Translations under genes and position numbers: made by a program
Source: Anaerolineae bacterium
Lineage (GTDB): Bacteria > Chloroflexota > Anaerolineae > Aggregatilineales > Phototrophicaceae
Length of the DNA: 64,000 nt
Direction of reading: 5' to 3'
Assembly (NCBI GenBank): GCA_022843745.1
Contig: JALHNB010000005.1
Coordinates: forward strand, 1 to 64,000
In this document: in pieces, positions 23,360 to 29,061 of the stretch
Position numbering within the stretch: the stretch's first letter is position 1
Layout: each line of letters begins with the position of its first letter
The notes under the pieces: model-generated
What the model saw: the letters and a program-made list of their open reading frames with translations, nothing else
Told to the model about the DNA's origin: nothing
The model's database searches: none

Positions 23360-24145
23360 CTAGGTGTTCACAGGCACGGCAAAAATCGGTGTCGTGGTTG
23401 GCTGATCGTCAAACGGGCTGCCACCTGCTGGTTCAATCGAAACCGCAAAGGCCTGGTAGTTCTGAAGCGAGGTTTCCAGCGGCACAACGATATACGTTGT
23501 TTCCTCAGCTTGGGTGGCCTGGAACAATCCTCCGCTTTGAATACTGCTCTGGTTATTGATAAGCCACAATTGAAATGTTTGGTCGGCTGGCAGGACAGGC
23601 AGATTGCTGACCTGAATCACCGCCTGGCTGCCGTCCGGCGCGGCTATGAGGGTACCCGAAATTTGTTCCTGCGCCGGGTCTGGAACCAAGGCAACACTGA
23701 CTGCGCCCTCCTGCGCAGAAAGGCTTGCATAAAGCTCCTGCGGGGATAACGCCTGCTGATTGCGCGATAAGAACCAGGCGACACCAAAAACGACGACTAA
23801 CATCGCTGCCAGTGCCAGTAATCCACCCAGTGCGCGATTGCGGCGGACGGGTTTGGGTTCAGGTAGGCTGGATTCCGACATCGGTATCGTTTTGATGGGT
23901 GCCGGGGGTGTTTCGGTTTTGCGCTGTGCAGCCAGCCGTTTACGCAGATCATCCTTCAGATGTGATGGAGCAGTTTGTGCAGGCGTTATCAAGATTAGCG
24001 AATCCGTCAACGCCTGATATTCCGCAAGCATCTTCTGTGCTTCGGCATCATTGGCTAGGAGCGTTTCAAATGCTTCTCGTTCTTCGGTATCGAGCGCACC
24101 CAGTGCATACGCGGGTATCAAGTCAAGGAATGTTTCTCTGTTCAT
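23360..24145 (-). CDS. Anti-sigma factor of the RskA type
   Basis: A 261-residue membrane protein. The cytoplasmic N-terminus (1-90) has the anti-sigma helix pattern LIPAYALGALDTEEREAFETLL. One membrane helix lies at about 105-127, and an extracytoplasmic RskA-like domain (about 135-261) shows QEQISGTLIAAPDG and FQLWLINNQSS. The N-terminal part lacks the His-x3-Cys-x2-Cys zinc motif, as in the non-ZAS anti-sigma group. It lies 80 bp downstream of the ECF sigma factor gene and should sequester that factor until an envelope signal releases it. Confidence 0.88.
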   Translation of the reverse strand: MNRETFLDLIPAYALGALDTEEREAFETLLANDAEAQKMLAEYQALTDSLILITPAQTAPSHLKDDLRKRLAAQRKTETPPAPIKTIPMSESSLPEPKPVRRNRALGGLLALAAMLVVVFGVAWFLSRNQQALSPQELYASLSAQEGAVSVALVPDPAQEQISGTLIAAPDGSQAVIQVSNLPVLPADQTFQLWLINNQSSIQSGGLFQATQAEETTYIVVPLETSLQNYQAFAVSIEPAGGSPFDDQPTTTPIFAVPVNT

Positions 24146-24225
24146 GTGTTTAAGACAACTGTCATCACTGCGCCATAGGGCCGCTAATAATCTTACAATG
24201 TTCCTCTGAATATTTGAATATACGC

Positions 24226-24822
24226 TCAGTTATCCAATGTCGGATTTATGGGCGTCTCAGTTAGCCACGCCGAACGCAACTTTTGCATCCCCTGACGTAT
24301 ACGGGTTTTTACCGTTCCTAATGGTAATTTCAAATATTCTGAAATATCGGAATGCGACATGCCGTAAAAATAGGTCAATCCGATTACGTCGCTTTGTTCC
24401 GGTGGAAGCTCTTTCATCACCATCACCAAGGTCCGGCGCAGTTCACCGTTGCCGGATGTTAAGATGCTCTCCCATAACTGTGGGTTTTCATCGATAAACA
24501 ACATTTCCTGCTTAGGTTCTTGCCGGGTGCGCTGACGTATGACATCAATCGCCAGTCGTCGGGTAATCGTCAACAGCCAAACAATAAACTGACCCTTCTG
24601 CGGGTCATAGGTGTGCGACTTGTCCCATAGACGCATAAAGGTGTCCTGCGTGACTTCTTCCGCCGCCATCTGGTCGTTGAGAATACGCTGTGCCACCGAA
24701 AAAACTAGATTGGCAAACTGAGCGTGCAAGGCTACCAAAGCTTCCTCGTCGCCTAGTTGAATACGTTGTAGTAACTCTAAAACGGGTGTCTGACTCATAA
24801 CATTTTGATCGGATTTATACAT
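24226..24822 (-). CDS. ECF-type RNA polymerase sigma factor
   Basis: A 198-residue extracytoplasmic-function sigma factor. Region 2 (about 30-100) shows AAEEVTQDTFMRLWDKS and FIVWLLTITRRLAIDVIRQR. Region 4 (about 135-185) shows QSDVIGLTYFYGMSHSDISEYLKLPLGTVKTRI. The SigK/RskA-type partner follows. A TATACT hexamer at 24832-24837 lies so close to the first ATG that the ATG at 24798 (MSQTP) may be the true start. Such factors usually drive their own operon, but I could not find a convincing matching -35 box. Confidence 0.9.
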   Translation of the reverse strand: MYKSDQNVMSQTPVLELLQRIQLGDEEALVALHAQFANLVFSVAQRILNDQMAAEEVTQDTFMRLWDKSHTYDPQKGQFIVWLLTITRRLAIDVIRQRTRQEPKQEMLFIDENPQLWESILTSGNGELRRTLVMVMKELPPEQSDVIGLTYFYGMSHSDISEYLKLPLGTVKTRIRQGMQKLRSAWLTETPINPTLDN

Positions 24823-25058: not shown

Positions 25059-26393
25059 TTAGCCTTCGTAGTAGCTGTCGATTTTACTTAAGGCGTGATC
25101 GACAATCTCTAGCCCATCTCTAATCTGCGCTTCGTTAATGATGAGTGGGGGGCAGTTGAAAACCATGCTCCAGCGCACGAACGTACTCATTCCTTCTTCC
25201 TTGAGCGTCTTGGTGACAATCGCCATCGGCTCGCTTGGTGCGCCCAGATAAGGGGTCATCGGTTCGCGCGTTTCGCGGTTTTTCACCAGTTCGATGACCT
25301 GATGCAGACCTGCGCCGCGAATCTCGCCAATCGTGGGATGTTTTTCAGCCAGATCGTTGAGTCCCTGTCGTAACACCTTGCCCATTTCGCGGGCATTTTC
25401 GATCAGGTTTTCGTTGCGGTAGACCTCGATATTGGCGACACCCGCCGCGCAAGCCAGCGGATGTGCGCTGTAGGTCAGACCCGTTGAAAGCACATGATCG
25501 TCAAAAAACGCGCCGACTTCTTCGCTGACAATCGTCGCGCCCATTGGCACATAGCCGCTGGTGATACCCTTCGCGACGGCGATAATGTCGGCCTGGACAT
25601 TGGGATAATGATCGACACCGAACCACTCACCCGTGCGCCCGAAACCGCTCATCACCTCGTCCACCAGCAGCAGCATGTTATATTTCTTGCAGATTTCGCC
25701 GAGTCGATCCCAGTAAACCGCGCTGGGCTGGATAATGCCGCTGGTGCCGCTGTAGCCTTCGATCAAAATCGCGGCGCAGTTCTGCGGGCCTTCCATCTGT
25801 ACGATTTCCTCGACCATATCCGCCATGATCGCGTCGCCCTCTTCCTGTGTGCGGCCTTTATAGACCGGGCTGCGATAGGCGTAAGGGTCGGGCAGACGCA
25901 CGATGTCCGGGATGCCAGCGTGTCCATGACGACGTGGGTCGCCGCCAGCGCTGGCCGCGCCAAAGGTCGCACCGTGATAGGAACGGTAGCGAGTGAGAAT
26001 TTTTTGTTTTCCCGTGAACAGCCGCGCCATCTTGATCGCATTTTCGATAGCGTCTGTGCCGCCGTTGGTGAAAAACGCCTTACTCAGATTTCCCGGTGTG
26101 ACTTCCGCCAGCAGTTCACCCAGGCGACCACGTGCTTCGGTAGCGATGCTCGGATAGGCAAAGCTGATACGCGCGACGTGATCCTGAATCGTTTTGACAA
26201 CGTGCGGGTGGCTGTGACCGACATTCACGTTAATCAACTGGGATGACCAGTCGAGATAGCGTTTGCCCTCGGTATCCCAAAAATACACGCCCTCGCCACG
26301 ATCCATGACAATCGGATTCCAGGCTTGCTGCGCTGTCCAGCTTGTCAGCGTGTAATCCTTATTAAGCTCGACAATTTCTGCCGTTGTAGACAT
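25059..26393 (-). CDS. Class III pyridoxal-phosphate aminotransferase
   Basis: A 444-residue fold-type I aminotransferase of the class III (omega-amino acid:pyruvate) group. The PLP Lys is Lys275 in IAVAKGITSGYVPMGA, preceded by the cofactor Asp in LLVDEVMSGFGRTGEW. The N-terminal WSSQLINVNVGHSHP and SYHGATFGAASAGGDPRR segments are typical of taurine-, beta-alanine- or putrescine-type enzymes. The amino donor cannot be decided and no pathway genes adjoin it. The gene is monocistronic by its spacing on both sides. Confidence 0.92.
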   Translation of the reverse strand: MSTTAEIVELNKDYTLTSWTAQQAWNPIVMDRGEGVYFWDTEGKRYLDWSSQLINVNVGHSHPHVVKTIQDHVARISFAYPSIATEARGRLGELLAEVTPGNLSKAFFTNGGTDAIENAIKMARLFTGKQKILTRYRSYHGATFGAASAGGDPRRHGHAGIPDIVRLPDPYAYRSPVYKGRTQEEGDAIMADMVEEIVQMEGPQNCAAILIEGYSGTSGIIQPSAVYWDRLGEICKKYNMLLLVDEVMSGFGRTGEWFGVDHYPNVQADIIAVAKGITSGYVPMGATIVSEEVGAFFDDHVLSTGLTYSAHPLACAAGVANIEVYRNENLIENAREMGKVLRQGLNDLAEKHPTIGEIRGAGLHQVIELVKNRETREPMTPYLGAPSEPMAIVTKTLKEEGMSTFVRWSMVFNCPPLIINEAQIRDGLEIVDHALSKIDSYYEG

Positions 26394-26540
26394 CAGAATG
26401 ACTCCTTAGATAGGCTGTTCGCGATGCGCTTTCAGCCGTCAGCCAGAACTTTTGCCTAATTGTAATCCAAAATGGCCTGAGAACCCAACACCTCAGATCA
26501 TAAATGACGGGATAACCCAACAGCGCGGACGATAAAAAAA

Positions 26541-26563
26541 AGAGGCATCGTCTGAATGCCTCT
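26541..26563 (-). terminator. Terminator of the arginine-rich mini-gene
   Basis: AGAGGCAT and ATGCCTCT form a perfect 8-bp stem with a seven-base loop. On the minus strand it is followed by an unbroken run of eight Ts (26533-26540). It lies 11 bases after the stop of the mini-gene at 26575. Confidence 0.88.
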
Positions 26564-26574
26564 CGCTATAATGC

Positions 26575-26667
26575 TTATCGGAGTCGCCGCCGCAAAATCC
26601 GTCGTGCCATGCGTCGCTCCTGTCGCCGATCTGCCCAGCGCAGCCTGCGGAAAAATCGTCTGAACAT
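26575..26667 (-). CDS. 30-residue arginine-rich peptide
   Basis: A very short frame of 30 codons starting at ATG 26667. It is backed by a strong ribosome site GGAGGGG (minus strand, 26675-26681) seven bases upstream, a TATAAT hexamer further up and a classic terminator just after the stop. Fifteen of the 30 residues are Arg, most of the rest are Phe, Leu, Trp, Ala and Met, and the N-terminus reads MFRRFFRRLRW. The pattern of paired Arg with hydrophobics suggests a strongly basic amphipathic helix, which could bind RNA, DNA, the ribosome or an acidic membrane. Arg codons are mixed CGN, AGA and AGG. I do not recognise a family. A regulatory leader peptide is an alternative reading, but the gene ends at its own terminator with nothing downstream. 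Confidence 0.7.
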   Translation of the reverse strand: MFRRFFRRLRWADRRQERRMARRILRRRLR

Positions 26668-26701
26668 GAGATTACCCCTCCATTCTATGCTTCTATTCGC
26701 G

Positions 26702-26707
26702 ATTATA
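26702..26707 (-). promoter_or_regulatory. -10 element for the arginine-rich mini-gene
   Basis: A perfect TATAAT on the minus strand lies about 35 bases before the mini-gene ATG, giving a leader of some 28 bases. The matching -35 (ATTTAG, 17 bases away) is weak. Confidence 0.5.
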
Positions 26708-26822
26708 GGACTGATTCACGGATTCTAAATTGACGTTTTCTTATGCACTGAGCATAGGTTGAGGATATTGGCGATGTGTTGTGAGGATGTAAAATAAGTG
26801 TAATCTATGAAAGTTGAAGATC

Positions 26823-27212
26823 ATGCAACAAACTCTACTATATCGTCTCCGCAAAATGTTTGTCGGCTTTATGCTGCGCTGCCCTAACTGTGAACAGGGC
26901 AAACTGTTCAGCGGTGGCTCGTTTGAGATGAACCAAACCTGCCCGAACTGCGGTGTACGTTTTGAGCGTCAATCCGGCGAGTCGCTCGGCGGCATGATGA
27001 TAAATCTCGTCACCGCAGAATTATTGACCATCGGCGGCTGGATTCTCACTGAAGTGCTGTTTGATTTCCCCTGGGTGCCAGTGCTTGCCTTCTGGGTCGC
27101 GTTCAATATCCTGTTTTGCATCGCGTTTTATCGCTCGGCGCGGGGAATATGGGTAAGCATTTCGTATATGGGCGGCGGGGTTTACGCGGACGCAGAAGGT
27201 AAGCCGAAGTAG
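26823..27212 (+). CDS. DUF983 family small membrane protein
   Basis: A protein of about 129 residues with an N-terminal zinc-ribbon pair, CPNCEQGKLF and CPNCGVRF (four Cys), and two membrane helices at about 60-80 and 85-105. This matches DUF983 (PF06170), whose role is not established. The ATG at 26823 is used here. An in-frame TTG at 26814 would add three residues, and neither has a strong ribosome site. The stop codon lies inside a palindromic GTAGGGG repeat. Confidence 0.88.
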   Translation: MQQTLLYRLRKMFVGFMLRCPNCEQGKLFSGGSFEMNQTCPNCGVRFERQSGESLGGMMINLVTAELLTIGGWILTEVLFDFPWVPVLAFWVAFNILFCIAFYRSARGIWVSISYMGGGVYADAEGKPK

Positions 27213-28104: not shown

Positions 28105-29061
28105 TTATTGTTGCTGTTGCTGCTGCTGTTGAACCTGATCTTCCAGTTCGGCATCGTAGGATTGCCATTCCGGTTCGGGCAAATCAATATCCCCATGTGC
28201 CATTTCGTCGGCGGGGCGAACCTGAACGGAAACGCTCAACTCCGTCTCGGCAGTGCCTTTGAAAACGCCGCGCGAGGGAGGCACATCGGCATAATCGCGC
28301 CCGATAGCCACACGGATATGGCGATCTGCCACGATCAGATTGTTGGTCGGGTCGAGCCCCACCCAGCCAAGTCCTGGCAAATAGGCCTCGACCCAGGCGT
28401 GAGTTGCGCCTTCCACAGAGCGATCCTTATTACCTGCACCTGTATAGAGATAGCCACTGACGTAACGGCAGGGGATATTCAGGTTGCGTACCAACGCCGT
28501 CATAATGTGGGCGAAATCCTGGCAAACGCCTTTGCGATTTTCCAATGCCTGGTCGATGGGTGAATCAACATCGGTGCTTTCCTGGTCATAATCAAATATG
28601 GTGTAGATCGCCGTATTGAGTTCGCGCAGCAGGTTCAAGGGGTCATCGCGACGCTTTTCGACATCCAGTTCGTTCGCCAATTGATGAACCAGCGGTGTCA
28701 TCTGGATAAAGCGGCTGGGGATGAGCATATCCCAGAAATCCCCTTGTGCGACCTCGGTATCAAGCTGATTCCAGGAATCTAAACTGAGCGCTGATGGCAG
28801 TTCCGGTAGAGGGCGAATATCGACTAAAGCATCTGCTGTAATGGTCAGGCGAGTGTGAGGCCGGGGAATATCAAAATGATTGACGGTATTCCCCAGATAA
28901 TCGCGATGGCTGAAAACCTGTGCGCGTGGATTCACGGACAGGTTATAAGTCAGACAGCGCTGGTTGCCTTCAGTGCGTGGGTGCATATATACATCCATCA
29001 CGCTTTCGGTGATAGGCGCACTGTAATGAAAACGGGTGATATGGTGAACCGAATAATTCAT
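28105..29061 (-). CDS. Transglutaminase-like protein with poly-Gln tail
   Basis: A 318-residue cytoplasmic protein with the bacterial transglutaminase N-terminal beta domain (about 1-95, YSVHHITRFHYSAPITESVM). A papain-like transglutaminase core follows; its catalytic triad is Cys in RKGVCQDFAHIM, His in GATHAWVEAYLPG and Asp in GLDPTNN. Proteins of this type cleave or join peptide bonds. The last eight residues are all Gln, encoded by mixed CAA/CAG codons, which is unusual. It is third in an operon after the ATP-grasp and alpha-E genes (33 bp gap), an association repeated in many bacteria and taken to mean a shared peptide-ligation and peptide-processing pathway. Confidence 0.92.
   Translation of the reverse strand: MNYSVHHITRFHYSAPITESVMDVYMHPRTEGNQRCLTYNLSVNPRAQVFSHRDYLGNTVNHFDIPRPHTRLTITADALVDIRPLPELPSALSLDSWNQLDTEVAQGDFWDMLIPSRFIQMTPLVHQLANELDVEKRRDDPLNLLRELNTAIYTIFDYDQESTDVDSPIDQALENRKGVCQDFAHIMTALVRNLNIPCRYVSGYLYTGAGNKDRSVEGATHAWVEAYLPGLGWVGLDPTNNLIVADRHIRVAIGRDYADVPPSRGVFKGTAETELSVSVQVRPADEMAHGDIDLPEPEWQSYDAELEDQVQQQQQQQQ

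Follow-up and report, generated by a model that had tools for sequence, protein, structure and literature searches.

A probable gene for an ultra-short, arginine-dense microprotein transcribed divergently from a DUF983 gene in Chloroflexota

A 64,000-nucleotide stretch of an Anaerolineae genome (contig JALHNB010000005.1, positions 1 to 64,000; hereafter the window) was found to carry a 30-codon, arginine-rich reading frame. In our assessment the frame is probably a genuine monocistronic gene whose product is an ultra-short, arginine-dense protein; a DUF983 gene diverges from it on the other side of a common intergenic region. A preliminary description of this DNA had proposed a free-standing unit encoding a translated, arginine-rich microprotein, and this proposal is supported by ribosome-site-preceded frames and by purifying selection in three relatives. 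The features of the locus are as follows.

26575..26667, minus strand: arginine-rich microORF of 30 codons plus stop, MFRRFFRRLRWADRRQERRMARRILRRRLR, with 15 Arg, its ATG at 26667 and a TAA stop
26675..26681, minus strand: ribosome-binding site (RBS) GGAGGGG, 7 nt upstream of the ATG, with a Shine-Dalgarno (SD)-like sequence at the equivalent place in four relatives
26702..26707, minus strand: -10 hexamer TATAAT, from the promoter scan
26724..26729, minus strand: -35-like hexamer TTTAGA with a spacer of 16 nt, from the promoter scan
26534..26564, minus strand: intrinsic terminator, a hairpin (26564-26540) followed by a run of 8 T, from the terminator scan
26777..26803, minus strand: triple ACA repeat TTACA-N6-TTACA-N6-CAACA in the divergent intergenic region, a possible shared operator
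26814..27212, plus strand: DUF983 gene (PF06170, E 5.3e-12), the divergent neighbour and syntenic anchor
25059..26393, minus strand: class III aminotransferase beyond the terminator, on the same strand as the microORF and not the next gene in the relatives

The TATAAT hexamer, the GGAGGGG site, the 30-codon frame with 15 Arg and the terminator that had been described earlier are all present in that order on the minus strand, and the position of GGAGGGG, 7 nt before the ATG, agrees with the favourable spacing attributed to it. The eight Ts and the 8-bp stem were also recovered, the hairpin being scored as 10 pairs, namely 8 Watson-Crick pairs flanked by two G-T pairs, ahead of a run of 8 T. The TTTAGA-16-TATAAT promoter matches the consensus at 10 of 12 positions and was the best of four promoter-like sites between 26000 and 27300, where 1.2 were expected. 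We then assessed the frame itself by counting the ATG frames, 20-60 codons long, that have an SD-like site and an Arg+Lys content of 38% or more. The window has one such frame, and twenty Markov-1 sequences of 64 kb simulated for comparison yielded a single one between them (0.05 per 64 kb); the count in the window rises to two when the SD condition is dropped. The ordered combination of promoter, RBS, frame and terminator is beyond chance, in agreement with the earlier judgement that such completeness is unlikely to be accidental; the terminator by itself is within chance (1 found against 1.4 expected in shuffles of the 1.3-kb neighbourhood). No tRNA was found in the window, and the window peptide, used as a query against its own genome (7.96 Mb), matched this place only.

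Searches by similarity did not lead to the relatives of this gene. BLAST with the window peptide gave matches in 6 of 41 genomes at E ≤ 1 and in 2 of the 154 genomes of the order at E ≤ 0.05, its own genome being included in both counts, and neither search found the microORFs of G043, G041 and G050 described below. Two peptide matches were rejected, that in G016 as an overlapping frame inside a 598-codon ORF and that in G009, by eye, as a frame opposite a long one. A DNA search with 306 bp against 98 genomes of the family returned at least 84 genomes at E ≤ 1, the best outside its own genome reaching 0.0069 among the matches listed; the matches listed outside its own genome were short partial stretches, and the true relatives were not among them. 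Two further loci, L010 and L011, were DNA matches over the RBS and first codons and were rejected as other genes whose starts appeared signal-peptide-like by eye. The DUF983 gene is present in 38 of the 98 family genomes (E ≤ 1e-10), and synteny upstream of it led to arginine-rich microORFs in three genomes, which belong to a single other genus within the family (Chloroflexota according to their record titles) and were tied to their accessions by exact 500-nt identity.

G043: microORF of 34 codons, MFWWRRFRERMLMRQVARRTARRTTRRIMRRRFF, with an SD-like site, divergent from DUF983; WGMX01000016.1
G041: microORF of 31 codons, MFWLWRFRERMMARRMARRMINRRMMRRRFW, with an SD-like site, divergent from DUF983; JACDGI010000422.1
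G050: microORF of 25 codons, MFWFRRFRERLLMRRVARRILRRRM, with an SD-like site (GGAAAGG), divergent from DUF983; JAIUNI010000002.1

It was noted that synteny can find relatives of ultra-short genes that are missed by peptide similarity search. In a uniform scan of 48 DUF983 places, an arginine-rich frame was found in 4, the window counted and L052 being scanned over 395 nt only (contig end), with a variant in G053 as an extra. A 56-codon frame with 36% Arg+Lys in G010 (L055) lies at least ~480 nt from DUF983, is without resemblance to the others and was counted as chance. When the frame criteria were applied to 352 kb of partly overlapping loci, all 11 matches were the window gene or its relatives in G043 and G041; the G050 frame was missed because its SD sequence, GGAAAGG, lies outside the SD pattern used. 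Profile A1, built from the G043, G041 and window peptides, reaches G050 at E 6.8e-4 and the window itself at 2.5e-7. At E ≤ 1, profile searching gave matches in 44 of 98 genomes; at E ≤ 0.02 it gave 5 of 396 and, in another search, 3 of 400; and a search of 154 genomes at E ≤ 0.1 gave 11 genomes, three of which are G041, G043 and G050. Other profile matches were weak and for the most part partial; the majority fell in frames that have at least 100 codons or contain a stop, and some fell in open frames of short length, such as that of G055 (E 0.042, 60 codons). A scan of viral contigs gave 65 pattern matches and no relatives. The microORF gene is rare and patchy in its distribution.

The three relatives allow the frame to be assessed as a coding sequence. 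Codon comparison of the G043/G041/G050 pairs gave pS values of 0.68, 0.64 and 0.55 against pN values of 0.24, 0.15 and 0.20, with dN/dS of about 0.17, 0.12 and 0.24 for the same pairs, so that the synonymous versus non-synonymous check suggested beforehand came out as an excess of synonymous change. Of the control frames in the three relatives, +1 gave pN > pS and +2 gave no consistent excess; the DUF983 genes of the same pairs showed pS of 0.63-0.71 and pN of 0.08-0.16. When the columns of the ungapped 23-codon block were permuted 3000 times, the protein similarity was at least as high as observed in 1 trial and the third-position excess at least as large in 27; residues other than arginine are also conserved in the relatives' peptides. 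The sequences in this test are few, short and of shared ancestry, and its direction is consistent. Because pS exceeds pN among the three relatives, the comparison indicates that the microORF of G043, G041 and G050 is a translated protein under purifying selection, rather than a small RNA.

The window gene is likely an orthologue of the relatives' microORFs, a reading that rests on position and composition, a 12-residue core and a shared repeat. Within the core, which was picked by eye after the alignment had been seen, 10 of 12 residues are identical between the window (RRMARRILRRRL) and G050 (RRVARRILRRRM), and 11 of 12 third positions differ. Shuffled versions of the window peptide reached the observed local score 7 (G050), 12 (G043) and 69 (G041) times in 2000 and the global score 2, 10 and 165 times in 2000, respectively. 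The window peptide is not retrieved by a profile made from the three relatives (E ≤ 0.1, 154 genomes), and profile A2, in which it is included, does not report it at E ≤ 0.02. In the DUF983 tree the copies from G043, G041, G050 and G053 form a clade with support of 0.945, and the window copy stands apart from these four with low support around it (0.127).

The shared repeat lies in the divergent intergenic region. The pattern TTACA-N6-YWACA-N5,6-YWACA has one match in the whole 7.96-Mb genome of the window, at 26777-26803; of the 48 DUF983 places, those that contain it are exactly the four with an arginine-rich frame, the pattern (spacing 10-11 bases) having been drawn up post hoc to fit those four loci. 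In the window, about 110 nt separate the repeat from the microORF and it lies near the start of DUF983; the relatives have it nearer to the microORF. We regard it as no more than suggestive of a shared, locus-specific feature. A 29-base intergenic element (L031, L034, L032, L033) was found in one copy each in G041, G043, G050 and G053 and not in the other 94 genomes, that of the window included (≤3 mismatches), and the pattern read backwards gave no match. It was noted that this element is kept although the synonymous sites of DUF983 are near saturation. The expectation that relatives would share the same terminator was borne out in G041, which has an equivalent one beyond the stop codon; on this strand G043 has a hairpin without a T run, and the scan of G050 and G053 found none. 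The terminator is not a fixed part of the unit.

Conservation of an arginine-rich frame, which the preliminary description had set as a further check, was found in three of four relatives. In the fourth, G053 (L033/L094; JAPUDW010000193.1), the promoter region, the RBS and the four codons ATG-TTC-TGG-TTT (MFWF) are kept without the arginines, and the frame continues as MHDHDWMHHPPYRVMHLSEVDARGMRG. The resulting peptide is His-rich, with 3 Arg in 31 residues and a net charge of -1. The leaders of G053 and G050 share 64 identities with 19 mismatches, whereas their frames, with 45 identities, 19 mismatches and long gaps, are much less alike. The local score of the G053 peptide was reached by 2 of 1000 shuffles against G050, 39 against G043 and 249 against G041, and local alignment gave no resemblance to the window peptide beyond shuffles. 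Several CGN to CAN codon changes were seen by eye in this frame. Either the peptide tolerates arginine loss, or it has changed role, or it is decaying in G053; the composition found there is not predicted by a strict model in which charge is the function. The title of JAPUDW010000193.1, "Bacteroidetes bacterium", is probably wrong, as 500 nt are identical to G053, which is placed in the family of the window.

The surroundings of the anchor were also examined. DUF983 genes are shown among COX operons and the protein is called COX4-like in the accessible text of PMC4013037. In the three microORF-bearing relatives (L092, L093, L095), DUF983 is followed by a 504-aa frame, assigned by Pfam to biotin carboxylase in L092 and L093, the two tested; unlike these, the window has DUF983 followed by a convergent short-chain dehydrogenase. 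Elsewhere on the minus strand of the window, a pair of genes for an ECF sigma factor and an RskA-type anti-sigma factor follows the aminotransferase downstream (23360-24822), and a transglutaminase-like protein ends in a glutamine run, QVQQQQQQQQ (28105-29061).

We next characterized the peptides themselves. Arginine makes up 15 of 30 residues in the window, 14 of 34 in G043, 12 of 31 in G041 and 11 of 25 in G050 (39-50%), with net charges of +13, +13, +11 and +10, respectively; Lys is absent from all four, and an MFW start is common to all four relatives, G053 included. Of the strongly basic amphipathic helix predicted at the outset, the basic character was confirmed and the amphipathic one was not, the hydrophobic moment at 100 degrees being ordinary for composition in all peptides. 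Over 60-180 degrees the best angles were 75-85 degrees, and the best-over-angle moment was reached by 55 (G043), 237 (G041), 74 (G050) and 428 (window) of 3000 shuffles; an amphipathic helix was rejected, as there is no single alpha-helical face. A low-confidence AlphaFold model made without an alignment placed helices at residues 5-8 and 16-29 (pLDDT 65, pTM 0.19). The window, G043, G041, G050 and G053 peptides matched no Pfam-A family (hmmscan, E ≤ 10), in a search whose filters can miss very short matches, and no NCBIfam family.

As a tentative reading of what the product does, we propose that it acts as a cytoplasmic polycation by docking on an anionic surface, for which the inner membrane or a partner protein in the membrane is the likeliest candidate. 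The product would stay in the cytoplasm, its aromatic N-terminus would act as a foot and its Arg repeats as the contact, and the partner would be tuned, much as YjiS-type DUF1127 proteins act on sensor kinases; the DUF983 product would be the first candidate, by linkage only. Since the peptides carry +10 to +13 in 25-34 residues, an anionic surface would be the natural target, and since the aromatic start is kept even in G053, a membrane or membrane partner would be slightly favoured over RNA.

A nucleic-acid- or ribosome-binding microprotein, in which the Arg repeats bind RNA or rRNA as part of a lineage-limited ribosome-associated or RNA-chaperone factor, is a possible but doubtful alternative. 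The same charge density would suit it, and the accessible text of PMC12501420 reports that the DUF1127 protein CcaF1 binds RNA. The only solved-structure profile matches at E ≤ 10 were two ribosomal L16 proteins (E 0.5 and 0.75), which is at chance level; against this reading, the peptides are without a family match, their rare and patchy occurrence is unlike that of a core ribosomal protein, and the aromatic start, rather than arginine, is what even G053 retains. Cationic short peptides rich in Trp, Phe and Arg can harm membranes, and a small toxin of a toxin-antitoxin pair or an antimicrobial peptide could likewise come from a stand-alone unit such as this one. We consider this improbable, as no neighbouring gene in the window looks like an antitoxin, immunity or export gene, the gene has a fixed place beside DUF983 in four genomes, and PHROGs was null for the window and G043 peptides and gave only E 0.56 for G041.

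The frame could also be an attenuator leader, at which a shortage of charged tRNA-Arg would stall ribosomes on the Arg codons and open the terminator, so that transcription would extend into the aminotransferase ~140 nt downstream. The short arginine-rich frame, the immediate terminator and the same-strand aminotransferase fit this idea, and a Sinorhizobium DUF1127 gene is controlled by upstream-ORF-dependent attenuation according to the accessible text of PMC12218461. Such a leader is nonetheless very improbable because each of the four relatives has a different next gene. In two of them this gene is convergent, encoding a Band_7/SPFH protein in G043 and a penicillin-binding protein in G053; in the other two it is co-directional, a glyoxalase-family gene in G050 and, in G041, a frame of 219 aa that matched nothing in Pfam. 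The conservation of residues other than arginine speaks against it as well, and the folding of the microORF transcript was no better than that of shuffles (z 0.54; minimum-energy and centroid folds, 196 nt).

There is only a slim probability that the frame of the window arose by chance, has its signals by accident and bears no relation to the genes of the relatives. The short, partial matches listed outside its own genome in the 306-bp search of 98 family genomes and the weak sequence-level homology to the three relatives would fit a chance frame, but the 0.05 expected per 64 kb was obtained under a looser description than what was observed, and the only such frame of the window sits where the relatives have theirs. 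A functional small RNA with an incidental reading frame is the least probable of these readings, for although the unit is short, bounded by promoter and terminator, and the G053 leader is conserved against G050 where frame content is lost, change in the three relatives is concentrated at third codon positions of an open frame with RBS and ATG, no Rfam match over the gathering score was found in the window and the transcript shows no excess fold.

In its fullest form, which we regard as speculative and rather unlikely to hold in every part, the proposal would be of an undescribed Chloroflexota microprotein family (25-34 residues, 39-50% arginine), co-controlled with the divergent DUF983 gene through the locus-specific repeat and acting as its polycationic regulator, with Arg to His turnover in G053 under a kept promoter and N-terminus. 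If true, these would be among the shortest and most arginine-dense bacterial proteins with evidence of purifying selection. In a phylum for which most knowledge comes from metagenomes, a frame under the usual annotation length limits is here indicated to be a gene under selection. It offers a compact test case for the role of very short polycationic proteins and for whether the DUF983 protein has a small partner. No description of this microprotein family was found among the titles listed in the literature searched, most subscription papers lying outside the search and novelty being provisional; the accessible text of the sORFdb paper (PMC11796252) does not mention Chloroflexi.

Several known systems invite comparison. 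Leader peptides of attenuators can be short frames of Arg codons just upstream of an intrinsic terminator, and the window frame is likewise short, arginine-rich and directly before a terminator; it differs in the varied next gene, convergent in two of four relatives, and in conservation at the protein level. The small ribosomal proteins bTHX, bS22 and bL36 have a few dozen residues and are strongly basic, and the microproteins share this small size and basicity but are without a Pfam or NCBIfam match, patchy, free of Lys in the four arginine-rich members and aromatic at the N-terminus. DUF1127, which we take to be PF06568, provides the closest parallel in kind: the window, G043, G041 and G050 peptides are likewise very short, basic and arginine-rich, the G053 peptide (3 of 31 Arg, net -1) departing from this. 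The accessible text of PMC12501420 gives named DUF1127 members of 47-102 residues, about 14% Arg on average and primarily alpha- and gammaproteobacterial, whereas the present peptides have 25-34 residues, 39-50% Arg and a Chloroflexota origin, without a profile match. According to the accessible portions of PMC12501420 and PMC11707872, DUF1127 proteins contact the sensor kinase PhoR in A. tumefaciens and E. coli and the Salmonella YjiS is found at the inner membrane, YjiS having 54 aa (PMC11707872). By profile outside that family, the product described here can be inferred to be a polycationic microprotein that is DUF1127-like in kind.
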